In this document: one piece after another, positions 11,308 through 27,034 of the stretch
Layout: each line of letters begins with the position of its first letter
How positions within the stretch are numbered: the stretch's first letter is position 1
IMG/VR virus record: IMGVR_UViG_3300012228_000014
Location: 1 to 27,034 of that record
Origin: a virus
Length of the DNA stretch: 27,034 nt
Direction: 5' to 3' (one strand)
Made by a program: the position numbers and the translations under genes
The notes under the pieces: generated by a model
What the model saw: only the letters and a program-made list of their open reading frames with translations
Databases searched by the model: none
What the model was told of the DNA's origin: nothing

Positions 11308-11520
11308 CTAAACGGTCAATGCCTTTGACGCCGTTCCTAATGATTCTAGGGTTTTTAGTTCCCTCTCTACGAAACGCTGCTGCGCCAGTAGCCAGGCTTT
11401 CCAGCACTTTCGGCATTTTCGATGACGGTGAAGCTCTCCGTCGCCGCAAATGATGCACTGCTTCGCCGCGGCCCTTTCGCGTTGCCACCGGAGCTGTTTA
11501 CTCACTTTGCGGCCGGTCAT
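11308..11520 (-). CDS. Small zinc-finger protein
   Basis: The protein has 70 residues. Cysteines CIIC (22-25) and CRKC (36-39) with an intervening HRHRK segment form a single zinc ribbon, flanked by a strongly basic N-terminal helix (KVSKQLRWQRERAAAK). DNA or RNA binding is likely from charge. ATG at 11520 overlaps the previous TGA (ATGA) and has AGGAAG 2 bases before it. It could be a phage transcription or packaging accessory factor; the family is not recognised. Confidence 0.65.
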   Translation of the reverse strand: MTGRKVSKQLRWQRERAAAKQCIICGDGELHRHRKCRKCWKAWLLAQQRFVERELKTLESLGTASKALTV

Positions 11521-12478: not shown

Positions 12479-12759
12479 GTCTTCGCCTTCGCGCGCTCGA
12501 CCGCGGCGAGCACGATTCGGAAGAGTTTCTGGTATGTGCCGAAGCTGCGCCAATTCGCGTTATGGCCTTCGATCTGCATGATCAATGACGGCGAGAGCGT
12601 GGCTGTCAGCTCAGGGCGGCGCGTAGCCTGAAGAACCTTCCGAAGCACGATCAACGCGCCGCCCGCCTTCTTCGCGGTGTGCTCGCGACTCAGTTCGACC
12701 CACTCCTCGGCCGTGAATTGCACCGTCACGAATTCGAGATCAGAACGGGACGTCATCAT
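12475..12759 (-). CDS. Unknown small helical protein between two methyltransferases
   Basis: The protein has 94 residues. Tandem ATGs at 12759 and 12756 follow an AGGTG ribosome site, overlapping the end of the MT-A70 gene by about 20 bases. The protein has VQFTAEEWVELSREHTAKK, then KVLQATRRPELTATLSPSLIMQIEG, suggesting four or five helices. It ends with a TTGA overlap into the next methyltransferase, so the three genes are translated together. The family is not recognised. Confidence 0.6.
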   Translation of the reverse strand: MMTSRSDLEFVTVQFTAEEWVELSREHTAKKAGGALIVLRKVLQATRRPELTATLSPSLIMQIEGHNANWRSFGTYQKLFRIVLAAVERAKAKT

Positions 12760-13816
12760 CGGGCACCTCGATCGGCGGTTTGAATTCTTCGCGGGTCCAG
12801 AGCTTCGCGTCGTTGCCGAACACGTCCCACCCCTCGACGCGCTCGCGGCCGAATAGTTCGAGGTAGGGCCCGCGGGTCCAATGCGCCTCAATCCACTTCC
12901 GCGCGCTCGCGGGCTTCTCGCTGTGCTTTTGCGATCGCCGTTCGATGAATACGCTTTTTTCTTCCGGCGTCGCCACGTCCGGCAGGCACGATCCGCGCGT
13001 CGCAATGATCAAATGTTCGTGAACGATATGGGTCCCGTAATGCCCGTGCATCCCGAGCACCTTGTCCCATACCCGGCCGGTCTTCGGCGTGAAGCCCCAG
13101 GCTTCGATCACTTCGCGCGGGCCGGGGTTCTCGTAGAGCATCGGCGCCGTTACCCACATGAAGAGGATCGCGTTCGGCATCGTATGAGCTTGCACCGGGA
13201 GCCGACACAGCTCCTCGATCGTCATGCTCGGATAGTGGCGCGCGGCCTTGCCCAGCGAGCCGTCCTTCGTCGCGCCGCTGTCGCTGTATTTCCACGGCGG
13301 ATCGGCGTAGATGATCCGATACATGCCCTGCAGCTTCGCTTGGCCGTCAATGACTTTAACCCGCTCGGCCGCTTGAATTTCTTTCTTTAGGTCCTGTTCG
13401 CTCCACCCCTGATCGCGCGATCGTTCGAGCCAGGTCTTTTGATCTGCGGGCTCCATCGACGCGACGATCGCGTGCTTCGAGAATCCGACGCCCTCGATCC
13501 GTTCGTCGGCCGGGAGCATGTTCTTCCCGAGGTATTTGTATTGCTTCACGCTGCGCTCTGACAGAACGTCGGCGTCGATCAAGTGATCGATCTTGTCCTC
13601 CCAATCGGCGCGCGTGTAGGCGTAGGCGATCAGGTCCACGATCCAGAACCCCGAGCATTTGTGAACGCGCGTCACATAGTCGAAGGTCCCCTGAAATTGG
13701 GGCAACGACGGCCGGACGCCCGCGGGCACAATAACGCCCGTGCTCGTCATCTGGAACCCGTTCAGCTCGAACGTTTCGAGCTTGGCTCTCTTCGCGATCT
13801 CTGTCTTCTTTGCCAA
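12740..13816 (-). CDS. MT-A70-family adenine methyltransferase with ParB/HTH-like N-terminal domain
   Basis: The protein has 358 residues. The C-terminal half is an MT-A70 enzyme: IIYADPPW with the catalytic DPPW at 172-175, then YPSMTIEELCRLPV, FMWVTAPML and RRSQKHSEKPA, ending in YLELFGRE near residue 325. It methylates adenine N6. The N-terminal half (about 70-150) has SERSVKQYKYLGKNMLP and a WLERSRDQGWSEQDLKKEI segment like the ParB/Spo0J-type HTH, a likely DNA-targeting part. The start is TTG at 13816 with GAGGG about 6 bases upstream. A strong hairpin precedes the gene, so it may start a separate transcript. Confidence 0.9.
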   Translation of the reverse strand: MAKKTEIAKRAKLETFELNGFQMTSTGVIVPAGVRPSLPQFQGTFDYVTRVHKCSGFWIVDLIAYAYTRADWEDKIDHLIDADVLSERSVKQYKYLGKNMLPADERIEGVGFSKHAIVASMEPADQKTWLERSRDQGWSEQDLKKEIQAAERVKVIDGQAKLQGMYRIIYADPPWKYSDSGATKDGSLGKAARHYPSMTIEELCRLPVQAHTMPNAILFMWVTAPMLYENPGPREVIEAWGFTPKTGRVWDKVLGMHGHYGTHIVHEHLIIATRGSCLPDVATPEEKSVFIERRSQKHSEKPASARKWIEAHWTRGPYLELFGRERVEGWDVFGNDAKLWTREEFKPPIEVPDDDVPF

Positions 13817-16319: not shown

Positions 16320-16807
16320 GTCGTTAGGTCTTTCTGTCGCTTCTTCGTATGCTCGAACTGATCCCGGCATGGCGGATCGTGTTTACACCCGGTTGGCACT
16401 TCGGCCAGGTCGCTATCGCCGCCCTCGCGAACGTGCTCGTTGATCGTTTGAATGAACAGGCCCCAGGGATGCTTCCGATCGCGGTAATACTTATTGTCGC
16501 CTGTGATGTAGATCGAAACGCGCGACTTGAATTGCGCGACGCTGAGCCCCTTCCGAAACAACGTCTTCAGGTTACCCCTTGACTTCGCGTAGTCCGTGAA
16601 TACCCAGGGCTCGCCGTGCGCGGTCTGCCACAGCTCGGACCAATGCGTTTCGCATTCCTTGATCTTCTCGGCGATCGTCGCCTTGCCGCCCGTGAGCGCG
16701 TCGAACTCCTCGATCATGGCGCCGAGCTTTTCCCACTCCTCGCGCATGACCGGGACGAGCTTCGCGAGGACCGCGAGCCGTTTCCCCTCGTCGGTTTTTG
16801 TCACCAT
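16316..16807 (-). CDS. Unknown protein immediately upstream of dnaB (possible replication accessory)
   Basis: The protein has 163 residues. It is helical in the first half (GKRLAVLAKLVPVMREEWEKLGAMIEEF), then has WSELWQTAHGEPWVFTDYAK and FIQTINEHV, with two late Cys (GCKHDPPCRD). Genes overlapping dnaB in phages often code for helicase loaders or initiator proteins, which makes that role a fair guess, but no AAA+ or winged-helix motif is clear. ATG at 16807 follows GGGG by 6 bases; GTG at 16819 with GGAGG 11 bases away is the alternative. Confidence 0.6.
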   Translation of the reverse strand: MVTKTDEGKRLAVLAKLVPVMREEWEKLGAMIEEFDALTGGKATIAEKIKECETHWSELWQTAHGEPWVFTDYAKSRGNLKTLFRKGLSVAQFKSRVSIYITGDNKYYRDRKHPWGLFIQTINEHVREGGDSDLAEVPTGCKHDPPCRDQFEHTKKRQKDLTT

Positions 16808-17788: not shown

Positions 17789-19719
17789 CGCTTGCGCCTC
17801 CGGGCTTCGTAGATATCGATCAACGCGCTTGCCTCGCCCATCGTCATATTCGATCGCACGGGCCCGCCCAGCGATCGGAGTTTCCCGAGCTGCCGATCGC
17901 TCGCGTCCCTCGATCGCCACCCGGCGTTCTTCGATAGAATCTTCGTCGTCGATCGTCGATCGTTGAGAATGAACAACTCGGCAATCTGAAGGGCGCGTTT
18001 CGCGTCCGGCACTTCAGGAACGAGCGTGCGATGCCGCGCGGGTGAACCATCGGCCGGGCGGAACGTCGCCGATAGTGTGTAGTGCCCGAGCACGTCGCGC
18101 GTTACCGCGAGAATTTCGGTCCCGTCCTGCCACGGGTATTGAAGCCGATACTCGTCGGCGCGAACGCGAATCCATTGATAGCGGAGCCCGGCGCCGTTCT
18201 TCCCCAGGCTCGGAATACTGAAAACATCGAACGTGCTCGCGCGCACTTCGAGATCCCGCAACGTCATTCGCCCGCCCAGAGCCTCGGGGTCGAGCCCCGG
18301 CGCGCTCTCGAGGATTGCTTCGAGCGCCGCGGCCATGTCGCGAAGGTCCTTGCCGTTCGCGCTCACGTTCGGCGGGAGCCCGTAGAGGACTGGCGCCGTC
18401 TGAAGAGAATGTTTGCGCGCCACGTCCACCACGTCGATCAGAATGCATTGCGGTTTCTTCATGGCGACGCCGCGCGCGATCGCTTCGAGCCGTTCGGGCC
18501 CGACCGGATCGTCGGGATGCGGCCGGAGCCCGCGGCCGGTCATCTGCTCATAGAGCGTCGCCGACTTCGTGGGCTTCGCGTGAACGATGCACGCCGCCAT
18601 CGGTAGATCGGTCCCTTCGGTAAGGACCATGCAATTTACAAGGCCCTGAAGGTTGCCGCGCCTGTAATCGCGAATCATGTCGCGACGCTTCCACGTTTCT
18701 GTCTCTCCGCTCACGGCCTCGAACGTGACGCCGATCGCCTTGAAGGCCCGCGCGAGCTGGTGCGCGTGATCGACCGTCACGGCGAACACGATCGTTTGCA
18801 GGTCGGCCGCATAGTTCGACCAGGCTTGCACCGTGAGCGCGTTTCGGCTCTCGACGTTCACGGCCTCGGCCAGCTCGCGTTGATTGAAGTCCCCGCGGCT
18901 CGTATGCACCGCGTCGAGGTTGGCCGTCGTCTCGATCACCCACGGCACGATCGGAACGAGATAGCCGTCCTCGATCGCCTGCTTCAGCTCGTAAGCGAAC
19001 GCGATCTTCTGAAAGACACAGCTCAGGCCGATCGCATCCGTTCGATTCGGCGTCGCCGTGACGCCGACGAGGAGTCGATCCTTTGGAGCTTCGAGATCCC
19101 AGGCCGCGAGATTGCGCCCCATGACCTCGACGTCGGTTTCCTTCACGGCCTCGATCTCGTTCTCGTCGCTCGCGTCGGCCGCGGGTAAGAAGCCAAGATG
19201 AACGAGCGCCGTCCGGTAGCTCGCCGCGGCTGCGTGGTGCGCCTCGTCGATCACCACCAATCGGAACGAGTGATATCGAAGGAGCGTCTTCAGCCGCTTG
19301 AACTTTTGCGCCGCGAGCGTTTGAATCCCGGCGACGATCACGTCGCTGTATCGGTTCGCCCGGCTCCCGGCCTGCTCGATCGACACCATGACGCCGCGGT
19401 TCCCGCGCGAAATCTTGTCCGCGGCCTGCTGAAGTAGCTCCTCCCGGTGCGCGATTACGAGGACCTTCGCGCCCTTCTCAGCCTTGAACGTGTCGAGCCA
19501 GGCCGCCAGCTTCGGGAACGCTCGACCCAGGAAGGCCGCGAACCAGATTGTCTTCCCGGTCCCGGTTGGCTTTTTGAAGAGGAGCCGGTTCTTCCCGTCC
19601 ACGAAATAGGACGTTTCTAGCGCGGCGCCTGCTGCATTCTGATACGGTCGAAGGACCGGAACCCCCGGACGGGCGCCGATCGCCTCACCTGCGGGCTCCT
19701 GTGAAGAAATAGGCGTCAT
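17785..19719 (-). CDS. SF2 DEAH-box helicase / type III-like restriction helicase fold
   Basis: The protein has 644 residues with the superfamily 2 motifs in order: Walker A PTGTGKT (51-57), motif II DEAH (158-161), motif III TATP (222-225) and motif VI QMTGRGLRP (392-400). The C-terminal 200 residues are a separate strand-rich region with DLEVRASTFDVFSIPSLGKNG and YQWIRVRADEYRL, and a helical end (GEASALIDIYEARRRKR). This is the phage helicase type that remodels DNA in replication or recombination. The ATG at 19719 has no clear ribosome site; TTG at 19770 is possible. No nuclease motif is seen, so it is not a complete restriction subunit. Confidence 0.88.
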   Translation of the reverse strand: MTPISSQEPAGEAIGARPGVPVLRPYQNAAGAALETSYFVDGKNRLLFKKPTGTGKTIWFAAFLGRAFPKLAAWLDTFKAEKGAKVLVIAHREELLQQAADKISRGNRGVMVSIEQAGSRANRYSDVIVAGIQTLAAQKFKRLKTLLRYHSFRLVVIDEAHHAAAASYRTALVHLGFLPAADASDENEIEAVKETDVEVMGRNLAAWDLEAPKDRLLVGVTATPNRTDAIGLSCVFQKIAFAYELKQAIEDGYLVPIVPWVIETTANLDAVHTSRGDFNQRELAEAVNVESRNALTVQAWSNYAADLQTIVFAVTVDHAHQLARAFKAIGVTFEAVSGETETWKRRDMIRDYRRGNLQGLVNCMVLTEGTDLPMAACIVHAKPTKSATLYEQMTGRGLRPHPDDPVGPERLEAIARGVAMKKPQCILIDVVDVARKHSLQTAPVLYGLPPNVSANGKDLRDMAAALEAILESAPGLDPEALGGRMTLRDLEVRASTFDVFSIPSLGKNGAGLRYQWIRVRADEYRLQYPWQDGTEILAVTRDVLGHYTLSATFRPADGSPARHRTLVPEVPDAKRALQIAELFILNDRRSTTKILSKNAGWRSRDASDRQLGKLRSLGGPVRSNMTMGEASALIDIYEARRRKR

Positions 19720-19753
19720 TTCGCGGCCGTCCGTAACCCTCTTTTCGAGCCCT

Positions 19754-19945
19754 TCATCCCTGATCCTCAAGTTTTGCCAGCAGAGCTTCGATAAACGCGA
19801 ACACGGACGGCGCCGCCCGCGGTTCCATATACTCCGGCGTCATGTCGGGCGGAACGCGCAACGCCGCGGCCCGATGATAGATCCGACGACACCGCTCGAC
19901 GCGCGCGTTCCGGTCTTCGATGATTCGCTGCCGCTCCTCATCCAT
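19754..19945 (-). CDS. Small charged helical protein
   Basis: The protein has 63 residues. ATG at 19945 has GGAAGGTG 5 bases upstream and overlaps the preceding gene by 8 bases. The N-terminal half is a charged helix (EERQRIIEDRNARVERCRRIYHRA), followed by a Pro-containing loop and an amphipathic helix FAFIEALLAKLED. It is likely a small accessory of the helicase operon. The family is not recognised. Confidence 0.62.
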   Translation of the reverse strand: MDEERQRIIEDRNARVERCRRIYHRAAALRVPPDMTPEYMEPRAAPSVFAFIEALLAKLEDQG

Positions 19946-20393
19946 AGATCACCTTCCCGAAGCATGCGACTTGAATGATCGCGTCGGCCATCGGGCCGTC
20001 CGGGTATTCCTCTTTGACAATGCGGGCGCCCCAATCGCCCGACTCCGTGCCCTTCGGGTCCTGAAGCATCTTCACGATCGCGCGCTTGATATCGTCCGTG
20101 TTGATGACGACGCGGCCGTCCTTCGTCCCCGGCCAATGCTTTCGCTGCCGTCGATACGCGGAGTCGTCGGTCGCGTCGCTGGCTCCGGCGCCCTGATGGT
20201 CGGTCAGCCGGACCCACGCGATCCGCTCCTCCGATTTCGAGTCCTTGCCGCCGACGAGGATTTCGGTCCTCGTTTCTTCGACGCGCGCCCAATAACCGAT
20301 CCCGTAAGTGTGCCCGGCGTCGAGCGCGGTTTCGAGCACGCTCGCTAACGCCTGCGGAGTCGCGTCGATCGTGACGATTATTAATCCTTCCAT
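19938..20393 (-). CDS. Unknown early-region protein
   Basis: The protein has 151 residues. It opens LIIVTIDATPQALASVLETALDAGHTYGIGYWARVEE, a pattern I have seen in uncharacterised phage early proteins that begin with a strand, a helix and a YW motif. Later parts have RVVINTDDIKRAIVKMLQ and ADAIIQVACFGKVIYG, again alternating helix and strand. A compact alpha/beta fold is likely. It starts with a TAATG junction. Function is unknown. Confidence 0.7.
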   Translation of the reverse strand: MEGLIIVTIDATPQALASVLETALDAGHTYGIGYWARVEETRTEILVGGKDSKSEERIAWVRLTDHQGAGASDATDDSAYRRQRKHWPGTKDGRVVINTDDIKRAIVKMLQDPKGTESGDWGARIVKEEYPDGPMADAIIQVACFGKVIYG

Positions 20394-21370
20394 TAGCCCG
20401 CCACCCCCTCGTCGATTTTCAACCGTGCCCCCGGATACGCTTGCTCGAACCCTTCCTTCAGGCCCTCGGCCATCCGGTTCAAGAACTTGAGATCCGGCGT
20501 CATCGCTTCGGCCGGTATGTCGCCTGCCAGGTAGGCCGCGCGGAACTTCTCAAGGTCGAACACGCCGCCGCAGCTGTAGTTCTTTGTATTGCGCGTGCCC
20601 GCGGCCTTGCCGACCGCGCGCTCGACCTTCGGCGCCGCGACCGTGATCGGCTCCTCGCGAAGCGCGTCGGCCTGCTCGCGGATCGCTCTTGACGCGCGCG
20701 ACGACGCGATCGCGTGAACGATCTTCGGAGCGCCGATCAACTTCTCGACCGTCTTCGCCGGGTCCTTGTAACCGGCCTCTCTACAAACTCCTTCGAGCTT
20801 CGTTCGATCGCTCTGCATGCCGCGACCGATATCCAGATCCCGCTCGACAACCTTCGTCACGAACCACAGCTCACGCGCGGAGAGATCATCGCTCGCCGCT
20901 TCGAGCTTCGCCGCCGCGTCCTCCTGCTCCTGTAGCTCGCGTTCGCGATCGGCACGGGCGATCGCGGCCAGGCGTTCGCGCTCGACGCGCTCGGCCTCCG
21001 CGACGCGGGCGTCGTCGATGCGCTTGTATTCGACGTGACGCTTTTCGAGCACGTCGAGCCCGGCATCCCAGGCCGCAAGCTCTTTCTTCTCAAGGTCGCG
21101 AAGCGCGTCGAGCACCGTCGAAACTTTGCGCTTCGGGATCTGCCAATCGGCGACCGTTTGCTTTCGGCCATTCTTGCCTTCCTTGATCGTCGCGAGCGCG
21201 CCTTCGTCGCTCTTTAGGTCGCTGATAACGATCGTCGTCGCGCGATCGCGGAACGCAATCGCCGCGGCAAGATGCTTCGCCTTCAGCTCGATCGCCATCG
21301 GCTCGGGCTTCGGCGCCGCGGGCACGGTCAATGCCTTTGACGCCTTCGGTTGTTTCGTCTTCGCCTTCAT
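20393..21370 (-). CDS. Long coiled-coil early protein (DUF1351-like end)
   Basis: The protein has 325 residues. After a basic start (MKAKTKQPKASKAL), residues about 30-170 form helices with a long Glu/Arg/Ala coiled coil. The last 50 residues (FDLEKFRAAYLAGDIPAEAMTPDLKFLNRM...PGARLKIDEG) resemble the C-terminal end of DUF1351-type phage proteins, which lie near recombination genes. ATG at 21370 overlaps the previous TGA (ATGA). It may act with the annealing protein and exonuclease; this rests on position and recalled pattern. Confidence 0.65.
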   Translation of the reverse strand: MKAKTKQPKASKALTVPAAPKPEPMAIELKAKHLAAAIAFRDRATTIVISDLKSDEGALATIKEGKNGRKQTVADWQIPKRKVSTVLDALRDLEKKELAAWDAGLDVLEKRHVEYKRIDDARVAEAERVERERLAAIARADRERELQEQEDAAAKLEAASDDLSARELWFVTKVVERDLDIGRGMQSDRTKLEGVCREAGYKDPAKTVEKLIGAPKIVHAIASSRASRAIREQADALREEPITVAAPKVERAVGKAAGTRNTKNYSCGGVFDLEKFRAAYLAGDIPAEAMTPDLKFLNRMAEGLKEGFEQAYPGARLKIDEGVAG

Positions 21371-21612
21371 CGCCGCGCCTTCGCGACGATGCCGCCGAGC
21401 ACCGATCGACGGCCCGCGCTTCGCTGCGCCTTCGACGCCAGGGCGCGGATTACGTGAGCCGGGATCGTGACTTCGACAATGCACGCTGGAACGAGAACGC
21501 GCTCCTTGAACGCATCGTCGGGCGCCTCGTTGTGTCTCGTCCTTCGCGTCGCGGGCGCCATCGACACATGGATCACCTGATCGCGTAGGTCTTCGGAATT
21601 CAGTAGCGGCAT
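21367..21612 (-). CDS. Small basic protein, possible ribbon-helix-helix regulator
   Basis: The protein has 81 residues. AAGGAG lies 6 bases before ATG 21612. The C-terminal half, CIVEVTIPAHVIRALASKAQRSAGRRSVLGGIV, has the strand-helix-helix spacing of ribbon-helix-helix DNA-binding proteins, but the match is weak. It lies 37 bases downstream of the palindromic TTGACA element at 21649-21665, so autoregulation is a possible reading. Confidence 0.55.
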   Translation of the reverse strand: MPLLNSEDLRDQVIHVSMAPATRRTRHNEAPDDAFKERVLVPACIVEVTIPAHVIRALASKAQRSAGRRSVLGGIVAKARR

Positions 21613-21648
21613 AAATACTCCTTCTGTTGCGGGAGCTTATCGACGCGC

Positions 21649-21665
21649 CGACTTCTTGTCAAGAA
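21649..21665 (-). promoter_or_regulatory. Palindromic promoter/operator element, copy 1
   Basis: The 17 bases CGACTTCTTGTCAAGAA also occur at 24901-24917. On the coding strand the centre reads TTCTTGACAAGAA, a dyad with 6-base arms that contains a perfect -35 box TTGACA (21662-21657). GATAAG, a four-of-six -10 match, lies 15 bases further on. The element begins next to the stop of the HNH gene and is 37 bases before the 21612 start. Confidence 0.55.
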
Positions 21666-22127
21666 CTATGCAGCATGCGCCGATAGCTCCGTCGCCATTG
21701 CGTGAAGCAGGGCCCGTTGCCAGGGGTCGATCGGAAGCAACCGGCCGGGCTCCGACTCGCGCGCGAGCGTGATCCACTCGCCGCCGTCGTCGCCCTTCGC
21801 TTGCCACTCGACCGGCCCGTTCGAGCCCGCGGCCGTCAACGGGACCCACCGGATCGCCTTCTTGTCGATCGAGATATGGCTTTCCTTGTGGCGCCAGTTG
21901 CAAACGTAGATCATCCGATCCGGCGTCGATCGTTCGCCGGTCGGATCGCCGCCCATCCCTTTGTGCTCGGCGTGACTCACTTCGAGGAACAGGTTCCACC
22001 GCTGGCACGGGCACAACGGGAACCGGCAGGTTCGATCGCGTAGCCGAACCTTCTCTTTGTTTTTGTTCTCGACGCGCTTCAGCCGCCCGGCCTTCGATGC
22101 CCGGCGACGCGCGGTCGGTCCCTTCAT
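21666..22127 (-). CDS. HNH-family nuclease-like protein
   Basis: The protein has 153 residues. A basic start (VENKNKEKVRLRDRTCRFPLCPC) leads to zinc ligands C34, C39 and C41. LEVSHAEHKGMGGDP follows with H52 and H55, then MIYVCNWRHKESH with C76, N77, H80 and H84, the layout of an HNH nuclease. The last 60 residues (WITLARESEPGRLLPID...) are a separate helical part. ATG at 22127 overlaps the stop of the small membrane gene (ATGA). It lies in the recombination block and may process DNA there. It differs in layout from the HNH protein at 16839. Confidence 0.8.
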   Translation of the reverse strand: MKGPTARRRASKAGRLKRVENKNKEKVRLRDRTCRFPLCPCQRWNLFLEVSHAEHKGMGGDPTGERSTPDRMIYVCNWRHKESHISIDKKAIRWVPLTAAGSNGPVEWQAKGDDGGEWITLARESEPGRLLPIDPWQRALLHAMATELSAHAA

Positions 22128-22270
22128 TTGTTATCGCCCATAAAGCGCGACGTTTCACGTCGAAGACGTGCCTCCATCGCGCGATCGCGAGAGCGTTGCT
22201 CGGCGCCGCGTAACCATCGTCGAACGAGAACGAACACCACCGCGCCGCCGACTATCCAAGCAATGACCAT
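22124..22270 (-). CDS. Small membrane protein with basic tail
   Basis: The protein has 48 residues and a near-perfect ribosome site, AGGAGG, 6 bases before ATG 22270. One helix (VIAWIVGGAVVFVLV) is followed at once by RRWLRGAEQRSRDRAMEARLRRE, so the basic tail should stay in the cytoplasm. It ends with an ATGA overlap into the HNH gene. It is inserted between the exonuclease and the HNH gene, where it could tether or regulate them; no family is recognised. Confidence 0.72.
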   Translation of the reverse strand: MVIAWIVGGAVVFVLVRRWLRGAEQRSRDRAMEARLRRETSRFMGDNK

Positions 22271-22279
22271 CGGAACCTC

Positions 22280-22852
22280 CTAACAGCACCGTTTGATTAT
22301 TCGATACGCCTCGTCGAAGTCCGCGCGTTTGTCGTGACGAATGCGCTCGAACTTCCCCGACGATCGCAGATAGAGCCCGAACCGGCCCATTGCTTCCGGC
22401 GCGAGATTGTAACGCCAGGACACCGCGATCGCCTGCAACGCGGTCTGGATTGGGTGCGCCTTGTCCTTGAGCCCCGACTTCTCGTCGAGCACCGATCGCA
22501 CGCGATAGAGCTTGCCGACGCGATCGGGCCGGGTCCCGAACAAATACTTCGGATGAACCTCGGGCTCCTCGATCGCGTCCCACGTTGGCTTCAGGGCTTG
22601 CATCGCCGCGACGTGCGCGAGGACCCAGCCGCGATACTTCGAGACGAGCCGCGACACGTCGAGCGCGCCGAGATCATATTCAGCCGTGAGCTGATGCACC
22701 GCGCGCCCGCGCTCGCGAACGTCGTCGGTGTAGTAAGTCGGATCGACCCAGCCGGTCTTCTGAAGCATGCCGGTAACGTTCGGGATCACCCGCCCGCCCA
22801 CGGTGTAGACGTGATCGACGTGATCGAAACGAAAATCCACCGGCTTCAACAT
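22280..22852 (-). CDS. PD-(D/E)XK exonuclease, RecB/Cas4-like
   Basis: The protein has 190 residues. The nuclease motifs are in order: RGRAVHQL with H53, GTRPDRVG with D110, VLDEKSG with D123, E124 and K125, and a QTALQAIA helix with Q136. This is the RecB-type fold used by phage recombination exonucleases, which resect double-strand ends. The annealing protein two genes upstream is its natural partner. ATG at 22852 has no clear ribosome site and follows the preceding TGA by 2 bases, so coupled translation is likely. It is at the short end of the family. Confidence 0.85.
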   Translation of the reverse strand: MLKPVDFRFDHVDHVYTVGGRVIPNVTGMLQKTGWVDPTYYTDDVRERGRAVHQLTAEYDLGALDVSRLVSKYRGWVLAHVAAMQALKPTWDAIEEPEVHPKYLFGTRPDRVGKLYRVRSVLDEKSGLKDKAHPIQTALQAIAVSWRYNLAPEAMGRFGLYLRSSGKFERIRHDKRADFDEAYRIIKRCC

Positions 22853-22854
22853 GA

Positions 22855-23148
22855 TCAGTGCGTCAGGAAGCGCGAGAGAAGGCTCTTCGTTTCCGGCGCC
22901 GCGACGACCCGGCTTCGCTTGTCGTTCACAAGGAACGCGACGATCACTTCGGACAGCTCGGCCCGCGCATTCGGGTTGTATAGGTCGAGAAGGATCTTCA
23001 CCGCGCCGACGAGCGCGAGGATCACCAGAGCCGCTTCCGTGTTCTCGCGATAGGGAAGAATTGCCTTCGCGATCTCCGCTTGAACGTGTTTCATGCGGTC
23101 CAAGTTCTCGGAACTGAATTCGAGGGTTTGCCCTTTTGCTTTTTCCAT
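22855..23148 (-). CDS. Unknown helical protein between annealing protein and exonuclease
   Basis: The protein has 97 residues. ATG at 23148 has GGAGAG about 8 bases upstream; GTG at 23157 is possible. It is charged and helical, with a hydrophobic stretch AALVILALVGAVKILLDLY that could be a buried helix. Its place inside the recombination pair suggests a linked role. The layout resembles small uncharacterised phage proteins seen beside annealing proteins. Confidence 0.62.
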   Translation of the reverse strand: MEKAKGQTLEFSSENLDRMKHVQAEIAKAILPYRENTEAALVILALVGAVKILLDLYNPNARAELSEVIVAFLVNDKRSRVVAAPETKSLLSRFLTH

Positions 23149-23153
23149 GTCGA

Positions 23154-24086
23154 TCACTCTCCGTCGCCCGGAAGGGCCAGCTCGCCGCGCGCCGTCATGG
23201 CGCGCTCGATCGCGTTGTAGTCCTTGCGTTTGATATCCGCCGTCGCCGAGATCCCGCGGGTCTTTTTCAACCAAAGGAGAACGTCGGCGTCCGCGCGCCC
23301 GGCCTTACGCCAGATCGACACGATCCGCCGCTGCTGCTCCGGCGCGATCTTCTCGTTGCCGCTGCCATCGTTGCCGGGCGCGGGCTCGCGCAAATCCTCG
23401 ACGACGACGCCGGTCTTCACATTCGATCGCGCCGCTTTCTTCTCGCCGGGCAAGGGCTCGTCGATCTTCCGGCGCCACTGTCGGCCCTTGTCGGTATCGA
23501 CTTGGATCGCACGCTCGGCCAGGAACGCGCGAATGTAAGGCTTCCGCCACAGGTCGAGCGCCATTCCGAACCGCTTGCACAACCGGCGCAACGCATACGC
23601 GGTCGTCGATTCGATTACGTCGTCGTAACTCTGTAGTTTATTCGCCGGGATGAACTCGGCGCCGCCGTAGGCGAACGCCACGGGCACGCCGCGAAGGAAC
23701 AGGATGTGAGGCACCATGATCAGATTGTCGGTCTTCGTCGGCTTGCCGCTCGGGACCACGGCCCACCCGCCGCGGCCGAACGATTCGTTTAACCAGTCCG
23801 TGTAATACGGGTGGGGCAAGTAGATAAAGCCCTTCGGGTGAACGAGCACCTCGTCGCGATCGGGCTTGCGCGCGAGGATCTTCTCTTCGCGCTTCGAGAG
23901 CTTGATCGGCGTGATGCCGATCCCGGCCGTGTGCGCCAGCTCGCCGAGCTGCTGGGCGACCGGCGCGAGCAACCCATCAGGATCCGCAACCTCGATCCGC
24001 GCCACGTCCGCGCGACGCGCGAGCGCCGTCGACGACGACTTCTTCGGAGCCCGCGCGGGGGCTCGCCGCTTTGCCTTCTTTGTCAT
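23154..24086 (-). CDS. Mgm101/Rad52-like single-strand annealing protein
   Basis: The protein has 310 residues. A Lys/Arg/Ala-rich first 30 residues may bind DNA. The core (about 79-190) matches the Mgm101 pattern: GFIYLPHPYYTDWLNESFGRGGWAVVP, a strand region with PVAFAYGGAEF, then ESTTAYALRRLCKRFGMALDLW and RKPYIRAFL. Proteins of this group anneal complementary strands and do recombination without RecA. The C-terminus has an extra charged segment and a KRKDYNAIERAM helix, perhaps a contact for single-strand-binding protein. It forms a Red-like pair with the exonuclease at 22280-22852. The ribosome site is weak. Confidence 0.88.
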   Translation of the reverse strand: MTKKAKRRAPARAPKKSSSTALARRADVARIEVADPDGLLAPVAQQLGELAHTAGIGITPIKLSKREEKILARKPDRDEVLVHPKGFIYLPHPYYTDWLNESFGRGGWAVVPSGKPTKTDNLIMVPHILFLRGVPVAFAYGGAEFIPANKLQSYDDVIESTTAYALRRLCKRFGMALDLWRKPYIRAFLAERAIQVDTDKGRQWRRKIDEPLPGEKKAARSNVKTGVVVEDLREPAPGNDGSGNEKIAPEQQRRIVSIWRKAGRADADVLLWLKKTRGISATADIKRKDYNAIERAMTARGELALPGDGE

Positions 24087-24137
24087 GGTTTTCTCTCTGA
24101 GGTAGGATCAGCCTGTTCATCGGACGGATCTACCTCG

Positions 24138-24176
24138 ACGGCCGGGCGCTGGGAAACGCTCGGCCGTTACTTTTTT
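24138..24176 (+). terminator. Candidate intrinsic terminator read on the plus strand
   Basis: On the plus strand an 11-bp stem (24138-24148 with 24157-24167, one G-U pair) and an 8-base loop are followed by TACTTTTTT. The shape fits a factor-independent terminator on the plus strand, although no plus-strand gene is seen. On the coding strand the same bases give a weaker stem with one A-C mismatch and no U-run, directly after the stop of the 24167 gene. The T-run on the plus strand encodes Lys codons, so it may be chance. Confidence 0.4.
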
Positions 24177-24406
24177 CCTTTCTTCCAATAGTTGATCGTG
24201 CCCGTGACACCTCGGGTCAAAAACTCGATCACGGCCGCGTCGCTTACCGGCCCGGACCACTCGATCGCCGCGCTCGCCATGAGCCCCAGGTTCTTCCGAA
24301 CCTTCTCGAACTCCTTCGCGGCCTGCTTCGAGATGATGCCCTGCAACCGACGCCCGCCGCGTAAGTCTCCGAACATCGACGCGCGCCCGAGTTTCTTCTT
24401 CGCCAT
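24167..24406 (-). CDS. Small basic protein of the early block
   Basis: The protein has 79 residues. ATG at 24406 has GGAGG about 5 bases upstream; a GTG at 24421 is less likely. The start KKKLGRASMFGDLRGGRRLQGIIS is basic; the rest is helical with FEKVRKNLGLMASAA and AAVIEFLTRGVTGTI. Small phage proteins with LGRAxMF...GGRxLQGII and IEFLxRG are common and unassigned. DNA binding is possible. It sits just upstream of the annealing protein. Confidence 0.65.
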   Translation of the reverse strand: MAKKKLGRASMFGDLRGGRRLQGIISKQAAKEFEKVRKNLGLMASAAIEWSGPVSDAAVIEFLTRGVTGTINYWKKGKK

Positions 24407-24446
24407 CGTTACCTCCGCCACGCGCCCGGCGCGGCCGTTACCCGCA

Positions 24447-24815
24447 TCAATCCTTGTGGGTCCGATCGACCTCGCGAACGATGCCGTCGCACGCGGCGCC
24501 GTCGATACCCTCGCACCGTTCGCCGATGTAGCCCCAGGCCGCGCACTTCGGACAGAGCCCGCTCATTGGCTTCGCCGTGAACTTCCCTCGGATCTGCTTT
24601 GCGTAGAACGCGCCGCGGGACGGCGCCAGGCCGAACGCCTCGAAGACCTCGGGCGGAACCTCGTAGTAGTGCAGGAAGAGCCGCGAGCTTAGAAACTCGA
24701 TCGCGAGCACGCGACGCGCCTCCGAATAGCCGACGCTTGCGATATTCGATGAATCGATCGGGAGCCGCGGCACGAGCCGGGCTTCGGACGGAGTATGGTC
24801 GGGCGGTTTCGTCAT
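24447..24815 (-). CDS. KTSC-domain protein with C-terminal zinc ribbon
   Basis: The protein has 122 residues. Residues about 18-82 form a KTSC domain: LPIDSSNIASVGYS, a strand pair, FLHYYEVPPEVFEAF, then APSRGAFYAKQIRGKF. KTSC domains are small and often found beside DNA-processing genes; their role is not settled. The C-terminus has four Cys (C88, C91, C101, C109) that suit a zinc ribbon. No ribosome site lies close to ATG 24815. A hairpin and the palindromic TTGACA element lie in the leader, so the gene may be regulated and may start the early transcript. Confidence 0.82.
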   Translation of the reverse strand: MTKPPDHTPSEARLVPRLPIDSSNIASVGYSEARRVLAIEFLSSRLFLHYYEVPPEVFEAFGLAPSRGAFYAKQIRGKFTAKPMSGLCPKCAAWGYIGERCEGIDGAACDGIVREVDRTHKD

Positions 24816-24847
24816 GGTGAACAGATAGGCGCCCCGCGTTCCTCCCT

Positions 24848-24867
24848 TTCCGGGCGCGCACCCGGAA
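24848..24867 (-). promoter_or_regulatory. Leader hairpin before the KTSC gene
   Basis: TTCCGGG (24848-24854) and CCCGGAA (24861-24867) form a perfect 7-bp stem with a 6-base loop, 33 bases upstream of the ATG and downstream of the palindromic element. On the coding strand it is followed by AAGGGAGG, which could act as a ribosome site for a short leader. The effect is not known. Confidence 0.4.
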
Positions 24868-24900
24868 CCCGCGAAACGCCTGTCTTGTTCGAGAGACTAG

Positions 24901-24920
24901 CGACTTCTTGTCAAGAAGTC
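24901..24920 (-). promoter_or_regulatory. Palindromic promoter/operator element, copy 2
   Basis: This is the same 17 bases as at 21649-21665, but here the dyad extends to a perfect 9+1+9 palindrome at 24902-24920 (GACTTCTTG, T, CAAGAAGTC). The coding strand has TTGACA at 24914-24909. It overlaps the stop codon of the preceding gene and lies 86 bases before the KTSC gene. No good -10 match lies at 16-18 bases, so an activator-dependent promoter or a pure binding site is possible. Confidence 0.55.
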
Positions 24921-25197
24921 AACGCGGCTTGAAATCGTAACGGCCTTCGACGCCGACCTCGCCCCCCAGCTTCGGCGTATTCGGCATCACCGGCGCGTCG
25001 AGATACCACGCCCGCGCGTAGGCCGTCAGACCGAAGCCGTTCCACCATTTGCGATCGATGGTAATTGCGGCCGTGTGCTTATGGCCGTCCGACCAGGCGC
25101 CGACCGTGAAGCTCGCGGGCTTCTCGGCCTTCGTCGTCGCGATCTGTTCGCCGTGTCGTTTGATTGAATCGGCGATCGGCGTCGGGTCCTGATCCAT
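24919..25197 (-). CDS. Unknown protein at the end of the lysis block
   Basis: The protein has 92 residues. ATG at 25197 shares a base with the preceding TAA. The first part is helical (ADSIKRHGEQIATTKAEKP). The rest is strand-like with many aromatic residues (SFTVGAWSDGHKHTAAITIDRKWWNGFGLTAYARAWYL), ending GVEGRYDF. No signal peptide is seen. It could contact the cell envelope or a structural partner. Its stop overlaps the palindromic element that begins the next block. Confidence 0.6.
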   Translation of the reverse strand: MDQDPTPIADSIKRHGEQIATTKAEKPASFTVGAWSDGHKHTAAITIDRKWWNGFGLTAYARAWYLDAPVMPNTPKLGGEVGVEGRYDFKPR

Positions 25198-25508
25198 TAC
25201 AGGATCATCCGATCACTTTTGAGCTGCGGGATCTCGTCCTTCGGCGTGCTCACGCTCGGCGCCTCGCCGTGCTTGACCAGCGACTCGACGCGCTCGACCG
25301 TCGTCGGGCCCGGCGACGCCGCGGCCGTGAGGAGCCGACGCCGATCGCGAACCTGCTCGACGATGCCCCATACCAACGAGACGGCGGTGACGACGGCGCC
25401 GACCGCTTGCACAAGTTCGTTGTCGGACACCGCGATCCCGCTCACGCCGCCAGCGGCCATTGCTTTCCGAAACACGCTCAGCGCGATCTTCACATACAGA
25501 GGGTTCAT
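25197..25508 (-). CDS. Holin-like protein with one transmembrane helix
   Basis: The protein has 103 residues. ATG at 25508 has GGGGAG about 9 bases upstream and overlaps the preceding TGA (ATGA). The N-terminal part is amphipathic (YVKIALSVFRKAMAAGG). The middle helix QAVGAVVTAVSLVWGIVEQ followed by RDRRR matches small phage holin-like proteins, and the C-terminal half is polar. Placed beside a transglycosylase gene, a role in timing membrane lysis is likely. One clear TM segment is visible, with a possible second at the N-terminus. Confidence 0.65.
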   Translation of the reverse strand: MNPLYVKIALSVFRKAMAAGGVSGIAVSDNELVQAVGAVVTAVSLVWGIVEQVRDRRRLLTAAASPGPTTVERVESLVKHGEAPSVSTPKDEIPQLKSDRMIL

Positions 25509-26236
25509 GGTTTGCAGCTCCCCAAGATCGCGCACCATTCCGCGCGATGTTTTTTGATTGAATCGGGCAGCGTCTTCTCGTTGCCCGCGAGCCAATCATA
25601 AACCGTCCGGCCGAACCATCGCCCCATGCCCGGATTCGGGCCCTGCCCCGCGGTCGCATAGTCGGCGAAGAGGACGTCGGCGATCTGATCGAATACCTCA
25701 TCGCCCGGATACGGCGGAACGACCGGCGCGGGCGGGGGCTTCGGCGGCTCCGGCGTTACGTCGGGAACGTCGCCCTTGCACCGCGGCGCGACGAACGCAC
25801 CCGAGGACGCGACCGGATCGGTAAACGCGGTCCATGCCGCTGAAGGCGTCGGTCCTCCGGCGCCCGCGATCACGTCGATCACCGTGACGGGATTGTTCGC
25901 CGGGTTGTGACTGTCGGAGCCGGGTCCCTCGCCCTTGAAATTGAGCGCGTCATAACTTAGATCGTTGACGTTGCCGCGCTTGCCATTCAACCCCCAGGGC
26001 CCGAGGCTCGGCTCCGGGTTCAGCTTGCACGCGAGGAGCTTGATAAAGTTCCACGCGCAGGCCGCGTTCGCCGTGTGCGCGCATGCGAACGTATTCGGGT
26101 TGTCGCGCGCGAGCTGATCAACGAACGCTTTCCCGCGGCCCGCGTCGAACGGCCCGGTCGGCTTCTGCTGCGCGAGTGCGGGCGCGGCAACGAGCAACGC
26201 GATCGCGATCGTCTTAATTGTGAGTCCGCGGATCAT
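25505..26236 (-). CDS. Secreted protein of unknown function in the lysis block
   Basis: The protein has 243 residues. The start MIRGLTIKTIAIALLVAAPALA is a clear signal peptide. The mature part has five Cys (ACAHT, AACAW, LACKL, PRCKG, AWCAI and a final SCKP), suggesting disulfides, a NPNTFACAHTANAACAWNFIKLL helix, GNVNDLSYDALNFKG and VTVIDVIAGAGGP. A Pro-rich linker (PEPPKPPPAPVVPPYP) separates a C-terminal helical part. The N-terminal type recurs beside phage lysozymes, without a known role. ATG at 26236 overlaps the preceding TGA and has GGAGG 8 bases upstream. Confidence 0.72.
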   Translation of the reverse strand: MIRGLTIKTIAIALLVAAPALAQQKPTGPFDAGRGKAFVDQLARDNPNTFACAHTANAACAWNFIKLLACKLNPEPSLGPWGLNGKRGNVNDLSYDALNFKGEGPGSDSHNPANNPVTVIDVIAGAGGPTPSAAWTAFTDPVASSGAFVAPRCKGDVPDVTPEPPKPPPAPVVPPYPGDEVFDQIADVLFADYATAGQGPNPGMGRWFGRTVYDWLAGNEKTLPDSIKKHRAEWCAILGSCKP

Positions 26237-26739
26237 TCCTTGACCTCCCCACTGACACGGTTCCACGCTTCACGGAACAGGGCGTCCCATGTCGCCTGAT
26301 GTGGCTTACCCGGACGCCAGGCGTCGAGGTATTGCGCCCACCCGAGCGCCGATTCGTGCGCCTTCGGCATCGTGCCCGGTAACGTCCACAGCAGGAGCCG
26401 CGCGAAGACGCACGCGAGCATATCGTTATCTTCGAGCGCGTATTGAATGTCGGCCGTCTGGAACGATTGCTCGTCGACTAAATGCTCGTATTTCAGGAAC
26501 CGAAGCGCCTCCCGAGCCGGGCCGCGGCTTGCCTCATGCTTCATCACACCGCGAACGCCCGCCTTCTCGAACTGCCAGAAGCCCCGCGCGGGCCCGTGAT
26601 TCACTTGGCGCCGATAGAGAAATCGCGACTCCTGCAATCCGATCGCGACGAGCATTGCCCGCGCGCCCGTCGTATCCATTTTCGGCGGCAGGATCGAAAG
26701 CGCGGCCGGGATCGTCGAACGAACGATCAGATCGATCAC
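26233..26739 (-). CDS. Phage lysozyme / lytic transglycosylase-like endolysin
   Basis: The protein has 168 residues. LVAIGLQESRF with Glu37 and GPARGFWQFE near 49-58 form the lysozyme-fold active-site pattern of SLT-like phage endolysins, followed by helices ending in the WDALFREAWNR segment. It would cut peptidoglycan at host lysis. The start is GTG at 26739, overlapping the preceding TGA. No signal peptide is present, so a holin is needed; a holin-like gene is 0.7 kb downstream. Length is normal for this type. Confidence 0.8.
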   Translation of the reverse strand: MIDLIVRSTIPAALSILPPKMDTTGARAMLVAIGLQESRFLYRRQVNHGPARGFWQFEKAGVRGVMKHEASRGPAREALRFLKYEHLVDEQSFQTADIQYALEDNDMLACVFARLLLWTLPGTMPKAHESALGWAQYLDAWRPGKPHQATWDALFREAWNRVSGEVKE

Positions 26740-26951
26740 TTGTGGGGCTTCAATTCACTGAGATCGCGCAGGACCTTTCCGAACGACTTCGGCGCCAGCG
26801 TCGCGTGATTCAAGATCCACGCGACATGCGCGCGGGCCTCGACAGGATCGCACTTAAGATCCTTCACCATCTCGGCGACGACCGCTTCGATCTGTGCTTC
26901 CGAGCCGGGCGGGCAACACACGCCGTAGAAACAGCAGGCTTGACCGTTCAT
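26736..26951 (-). CDS. Small Cys-rich protein upstream of the endolysin
   Basis: The protein has 71 residues. GGAGGAAACC precedes ATG 26951. The N-terminus CCFYGVCCPPG holds four Cys in a short stretch, perhaps metal binding. The rest is helical (AQIEAVVAEMVKDL, EARAHVAWILNHA). It is translationally coupled to the endolysin by a GTGA overlap. The family is not recognised. Confidence 0.65.
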   Translation of the reverse strand: MNGQACCFYGVCCPPGSEAQIEAVVAEMVKDLKCDPVEARAHVAWILNHATLAPKSFGKVLRDLSELKPHK

Positions 26952-27034
26952 GGTTTCCTCCGATCGATTTGGTTCGTCAACTCGAAATCTCGAAGTTTAT
27001 ATTCGCGCTCGATCCGCTCGGCGTTCTTCTCGAT
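26948..27034 (-). CDS. C-terminal end of a charged coiled-coil protein (partial)
   Basis: Twenty-eight codons are open from the window edge to a TGA overlapping the next ATG (ATGA). The residues (IEKNAERIEREYKLRDFEL then TNQIDRRKP) are highly charged and helical. The 5' part is outside the window. A spanin-like or tail-linked protein would fit the lysis context, but there is too little to say. Confidence 0.55.
   Translation of the reverse strand: MEKNAERIEREYKLRDFELTNQIDRRKP

Follow-up and report, generated by a model that had tools for sequence, protein, structure and literature searches.

The window analysed here is the whole of IMG/VR virus record IMGVR_UViG_3300012228_000014, which is probably a fragment of a phage genome, and the copy counts given for it cover these 27,034 bases only. 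It encodes a major head protein, a terminase and a DnaB helicase, and its genes run mainly on the minus strand. Two minus-strand units are of interest. The first one, behind what is called site A, starts with a KTSC-domain gene (24447–24815; PF13619, 4.5e-17), followed by small84, the gene of a conserved basic protein of 79 aa (24167–24406), then by the genes of a Mgm101/Rad52-like annealing protein (23154–24086; PF06420, 1.3e-23) and of an exonuclease-like protein (22280–22852; phrog_298, 8e-05), and by a conserved Cys/His-rich gene, HNH-like by eye and with no Pfam or PHROG match (21666–22127). The second one, behind site B, is the p340 gene (20393–21376), preceded in the window by an 81-aa ORF (21367–21612). 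Elsewhere, an MT-A70-type adenine methyltransferase gene lies at 12740–13816 (minus strand), a 16-base inverted repeat, GTGATCGACGTGATCG and its reverse complement, is found at 22811–22826 and 25867–25882, each part inside an ORF, and a 21-base direct repeat, ACGGTCAATGCCTTTGACGCC, at 11312–11332 and 21324–21344, the second copy falling within the p340 gene.

A 17-mer, CGACTTCTTGTCAAGAA, occurs as two exact copies on the plus strand, at 21649–21665 (copy 1, site B) and 24901–24917 (copy 2, site A), both of them intergenic. No third copy was found on the plus strand of the window and none on the minus strand. This exact search confirms an earlier sequence-only reading, which had described an identical 17-mer in two gene gaps and in one orientation. 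The 19-mer GACTTCTTGTCAAGAAGTC, searched on both strands with up to three mismatches, matched the window only at the same two places and gave no match in 100 dinucleotide-preserving shuffles. The symmetry claimed for the 17-mer holds for 13 bp of copy 1 (21653–21665, TTCTTG-T-CAAGAA), the leading CGAC falling outside the dyad, and copy 2 forms a perfect 19-bp odd palindrome (GACTTCTTGACAAGAAGTC on the minus strand, 24902–24920). Since most genes lie on the minus strand, the minus-strand reading of the core, TTCTTGACAAGAA, is the useful one, and it forms an odd dyad whose centre is the A of TTGACA. Palindromy by itself is weak evidence, because odd palindromes with arms of at least 9 were present in 4 of 60 base shuffles of the window; the case rests on repetition and conservation.

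The surroundings of both copies look like promoters. At copy 1, the perfect TTGACA described earlier is indeed present, to be read on the minus, gene-carrying strand (21657–21662), and a -10 hexamer, TAAGCT (21634–21639), lies 17 nt from it and is identical in G004, the nearest relative found. A Shine–Dalgarno AAGGAG (21618–21623), recognised by sequence and conserved in G004, precedes the ATG at 21612, and 36 bases, rather than the 37 first counted, separate the 17-mer from this start of 21367–21612. The symmetric site thus covers the -35, as the idea of a binding site over this box implied, and it is likely to be occupied by a protein. The dyad of copy 1 adjoins the stop codon TAG of the upstream gene 21666–22127, and that of copy 2 overlaps the TGA of 24919–25197. 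At copy 2, the TTGACA of the dyad has no xAxxxT at 16–19 nt, and the candidate -35 at the correct spacing is a TTGACT (24917–24922) placed 17 nt from TAGTCT (24894–24899), a candidate -10 aligned with TAAGCT in G004. The homologous promoter of G004 reads TTGACA-18-TAAGCT, with the dyad on its -35, and in the window the dyad lies 9 nt closer to the -10. The copy 2 dyad is the longest of all sites despite a -10 distance misfitting its TTGACA. Such retention seems to fit an operator better than a -35 variant, since decay would be tolerated there in a sequence serving just as a -35, though not in an operator, this being a single case.

With hexamers 16–18 nt apart before a gene, the layout is that of sigma70-type promoters. 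Neither window site is listed by a strict promoter scan (at least 4/6 per hexamer and 9/12 overall), because TAAGCT and TAGTCT match only 3/6. An xAxxxT at 17 or 18 nt follows eight of the 11 TTCTTGACAAGAA-type sites scored, for a chance of 4.6–7.0% per site, and the three sites without it are window copy 2 and one sequence internal to a giant gene, found in two records. A layout resembling that of copy 2 is also seen in G007 (35595–35625), where TTGACA-17-CAGAAT carries the dyad-like GTTGTTGTCAGAATC in its spacer.

The same two loci keep the site among relatives, a check that had been proposed for it. Dyad-type promoters stand before the small84/recombination operon and before p340 in nine related phage genomes, window included, whose exonucleases are 40–92% identical to that of the window. 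The gene order behind site A is KTSC (5/9 genomes; besides the window, in G004, G007, L222 and L223), small84, annealing protein, exonuclease and HNH-like gene, and the same small basic protein, small84, is present in this operon in all nine. Behind site B, p340 follows directly in five of the nine genomes, and small ORFs intervene in the window, G004, L223 and L225. When six genomes were compared, small84, the exonuclease and p340 were among the genes near the sites common to all of them. A scan of viral contigs with the 17-mer gave three stretches, one of them related (L005, in G001, whose portal, head protein and terminase are 58–60% identical to those of the window). The 13-mer core of copy 1 is found identically in G004, G001 and G038. 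In G001, three exact copies and a fourth with two changes are all followed by a -10, and a copy with one change, inside a giant gene, lacks one. G004 (45,947 bases; exonuclease 92% identical) has three exact copies, one inside a coding region, and no further 13-mer within two mismatches; in G038 (the record of L226), two copies are exact and two others differ by one mismatch. With up to two mismatches, the window 13-mer matches 10 of 33 portal-related records, including G006 and G009 with one mismatch and none exact. At one of the G001 promoters (L005 4600–4660), an apparent intrinsic terminator, seen by eye (GGCCCGGC...GCCGGGCCTTTTT), shares its left arm and loop with the spacer and -10, so that transcription of the upstream unit may end across the new start site.

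Seven of these loci were retrieved by way of the small84 protein and not of the dyad; they include three new phages (L222, L223 and L225). Their promoters were searched as a TTGAC-type hexamer plus a -10, any TTGACA being also accepted at these loci, with flanks left unconstrained. All seven have a dyad-type site 207–931 nt before small84 and another one before p340, just as site A precedes small84 and site B precedes p340 in the window and in G001. At L224, site A is a TTGACA without a -10 at 16–18 nt. Dyad-type flanks were found in 14 of the 15 TTGACA rows of this unconstrained search; L222 and L223 have two dyad-type sites each and L225 has three, the dyads of L225 using TTGACT. The same scan also gave 13 rows without a dyad, seven of them from L225 (three on the other strand). 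The Cys/His-rich gene that ends at the copy 1 dyad has matches at five of these seven loci. A dyad pattern, composed after the sites had been seen and from a profile to which all eight small84-positive records contributed rows, has 2–4 coding-strand matches in each of these eight records (26 in total; one on the opposite strand). One match each is carried by 5 of 18 records without small84, many of which are short fragments where a missing match means little, six exceeding 40 kb (G014, G025, G026, G029, G030 and G036). The reversed pattern, used as a control, gave two matches across all 26 records. A promoter-pattern scan returned 108 stretches, and kinship was checked for the 107 besides L005. 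Related ones are L107, with two matches, and L135, L142 and L187, which are three pieces of G004; L136, L166 and L212 have just one gene type, weak or widespread, in common with the window phage, and the remaining 100 of the 107 gave no kinship match.

Inside the giant gene of three phages, a dyad-type TTGACA is followed at 17 nt by CAGACT or CAGAAT (G004 28070–28082, G007 16476–16490 and G039 2736–2764, the records behind L014, L220 and L222, respectively). These internal dyads share column 1070 of the protein alignment, within a poorly conserved linker, and could perhaps mark a third regulated, internal promoter. The window stops short of the giant gene.

The variation between sites gives details about what is kept. 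Positions were counted over 25 of the 27 sites listed, two sites inside coding sequence being dropped, and a few of the 25 had been chosen by the core itself. The arms drift, yet the TT and AA flanking TTGAC are nearly invariant, with T at -5 in 24/25, T at -6 in 23/25 and AA at +5/+6 in 25/25, all of them outside the -35 hexamer. The consensus is roughly aSTTSTTGACAasAAST (S = C or G). Positions +/-4 and +/-7 mostly alternate between C and G with only partial pairing, complementary pairs being found at +/-4 in 13/25 (shuffle mean 10.3, P 0.15) and at +/-7 in 14/25 (shuffle mean 9.4, P 0.02), where both P values ignore kinship. The altered arms are found in G007 (GTTGTTGACAACAAC and GTTGTTGACAGAAAC) and in G011 (GTTGTTGACACAAAC three times, GTTGTTGACACAAAG once), pairs +/-3 and +/-4 being broken in the four G011 sites and in one G007 site. 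An inverted repeat is thus conserved inside the core promoter among relatives, with only partial symmetry in some of them.

Which protein could bind these sites was then considered among the phage products. The 81-aa product of 21367–21612 had been proposed as its own ribbon-helix-helix (RHH) repressor, and this proposal is not supported. Pfam and PHROG searches with the protein gave nothing better than E 0.1, the viral-contig scan turned up no relative, and phmmer found no homologue in 11 related records, where blastp gave one chance-level piece (E 6.3); as a control for these searches, small84 was recovered in four of the five records, among the 11, that carry it. Neither an RHH family match nor conservation with the operator was observed, and other small ORFs sit at this place in G004. 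The gene looks like one of the variable inserts between site B and p340, and its product was rejected as a regulator. Single-sequence scans with this protein and with the annealing protein found no relative. The p340 protein has a Terminase_2-type HTH seen by Pfam in two of the five members scanned, the window's not among them, and it is disfavoured as a universal binder because G038 lacks the HTH segment and yet has intact dyads; p340 divergence does not follow operator divergence either (r = 0.08).

On the available sequences, small84 is a better phage-encoded candidate than the 21367–21612 product. It has an RxQGxxT-like stretch followed by two or three helices, features that would be compatible with an RHH repressor. 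No credible match was found in Pfam, PHROG, NCBIfam or PDB sequences, and a Pfam HTH was not detected in the six members scanned. Its two models (mean pLDDT 74.5 and 72.6) have no strand assigned, a monomer model being unable to show the ribbon; they gave no convincing fold match, the best structural rows being bHLH domains with Z <3, and no RHH among the Foldseek or VIA rows, an absence that is not proof against RHH. Small84 divergence shows no correlation with operator divergence (r = 0.03, P 0.44; r = 0.07 for a 9-aa putative strand), and operator divergence tracks that of the unrelated exonuclease, used as a kinship proxy (r = 0.50, P 0.017). That small84 is the dyad-binding repressor is a tentative assignment, less likely than not.

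The reading preferred here, held with moderate confidence, is that both copies are operators of a dimeric repressor, set within sigma70-type early promoters and shutting two units together, small84 being the likeliest phage-encoded binder. A dyad centred near -32, as in copy 1, or in the spacer, as in copy 2, suits repression, not activation. The repressor would occupy the odd dyad over or just downstream of the -35 and keep RNA polymerase off, an occlusion suggested by these positions because they are where repressors sit. The site A (copy 2) operon and p340 behind site B (copy 1) would be turned off jointly, and small84, produced from the site A operon, would provide negative feedback after infection. 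We infer the early timing of the genes, as well as binding, repression and the identity of the binder, from the sequence. A further step, which is rather doubtful, would be that small84 founds an undescribed family of very small repressors reading an odd dyad fused to the -35, and that they govern a lineage-wide, feedback-controlled early regulon; on the same doubtful footing, this regulon would consist of the recombination operon, p340 and, in three genomes, the promoter inside the giant virion gene.

The dyads might instead be bound by a host-encoded dimeric regulator, such as a stress or SOS-type repressor, tying the phage genes to the host state without any phage repressor. This is unlikely, even if no known repressor was matched among the window proteins scanned (20 by PHROGs and 14 by Pfam), the only regulator-like match being a sub-cutoff ANT/KilAC inside the annealing protein (17.1 bits for a cut-off of 25.3). 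The drift of the operators with phage kinship and not with small84 also counts for it, since sites would be expected to adapt to the regulators of different hosts. However, both recurrent sites precede phage units, the first of which has small84 in all nine genomes compared. It is still less likely that there is no regulator at all and that the flanks reflect an extended -35/spacer preference of a host or phage-modified RNA polymerase. The symmetry would then be incidental because TTGACAA is itself symmetric, and indeed TTGACA by itself accounts for the centre pairs +/-1 and +/-2, the left half varies more than the right one, and some sites are only partly symmetric. However, the near-invariant TT at -6/-5 mirrors the AA at +5/+6, and the copy 2 dyad is kept though no -10 stands at the proper distance from its TTGACA.

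Two other explanations have little to recommend them. An autoregulatory operator of the 21367–21612 product is very improbable: this is the first ORF behind copy 1, and the C-terminal part of its product is RHH-like by eye, but it has no homologue in viral contigs or in the 11 records, no family match below E 0.1, and its place is taken by other ORFs in G004. That the dyad acts as a hairpin in RNA, or as an intrinsic terminator behind the stop codons of the upstream genes, deserves hardly any credit. Both dyads do adjoin or overlap a stop codon, and the RNA fold of copy 2 (-8.7 kcal/mol, z -2.62) is matched by only 5 of 200 shuffles, but the fold of copy 1 does not stand out from shuffles (z -0.78), no T-run follows the dyad on either strand, and a terminator scan lists neither copy. 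The GC-rich stem and T-run of an intrinsic terminator are not found here, which led to its rejection, and neither a hairpin nor a terminator accounts for the strict -10 spacing and the constant DNA core. N4-type hairpin promoters were also considered, because relatives carry a virion-type protein of 2868–3641 aa, and were set aside, the -10 sitting at 17–18 nt.

The operator reading can be compared with known systems. Lambda-type OR/OL regions have odd dyads of about 17 bp overlapping the -35 of early promoters. Here there is one operator per promoter, in contrast to their triple arrays, and no CI/Cro-type match was found among the window proteins scanned. Phage P22 Mnt and Arc are small RHH repressors whose odd or near-palindromic operators overlap early promoters. 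The likeness lies in a small phage protein, here a candidate, and in an odd operator overlapping a predicted early promoter; the difference is that RHH is only a candidate fold for small84, with no credible sequence match to solved structures. The best comparison is with the Aca-controlled promoters of acr-aca phage operons, which have an inverted repeat in the core promoter and are autorepressed by blocking RNA polymerase (PMC9410906). The small regulator gene (here a candidate) inside the operon and the inverted repeat within the core promoter are common to both. In contrast, Aca are HTH proteins of anti-CRISPR operons, whereas the operon here carries recombination genes, no HTH is detectable in the candidate, and two or more units share one type of site. 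In cluster A mycobacteriophages, one repressor site is spread over several places and early promoters (PMC9283540). These stoperators are asymmetric and numerous and stop elongation, whereas the window sites are few, symmetric and tied to a -10.

Bases 1–25000 and 19101–27034 gave no DNA match to named phages, and the window phage appears to belong to a podovirus lineage absent from the named-phage collection searched. The nearest named phages by portal are phiV10-type podoviruses and related Vibrio phages, with 43–45% identity among the best 20 of 176 matches; this collection gave no DNA match to the window and, with one member as query, no small84 match. Small84 was likewise absent from the named phages (one member as query) and plasmids searched. 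Most of the 26 portal relatives in genome contigs belong to Proteobacteria, and weaker ones come from Desulfobacterota-type, Deferribacteraceae and Spartobacteria contigs; small84 was not found in 14 such genomes, searched with no positive control. A limited literature search found no publication on the dyad motif or on small84.

The 17-mer would thus mark two phage promoters on which lies a symmetric, apparently protein-bound site; this control site is real, though of a rather ordinary sort. The element appears to be a promoter-operator of a well-known type in a new phage lineage, and its reading as a binding site is well supported by conservation. This opens a way into the gene regulation of uncultivated podoviruses of a lineage without a close relative in the named-phage collection searched, and a two-copy repeat becomes a regulon that can be tested, with few candidate binders. 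Should small84 prove to be the repressor, it would contribute a small, as yet unclassified DNA-binding protein along with a compact operator-promoter part.
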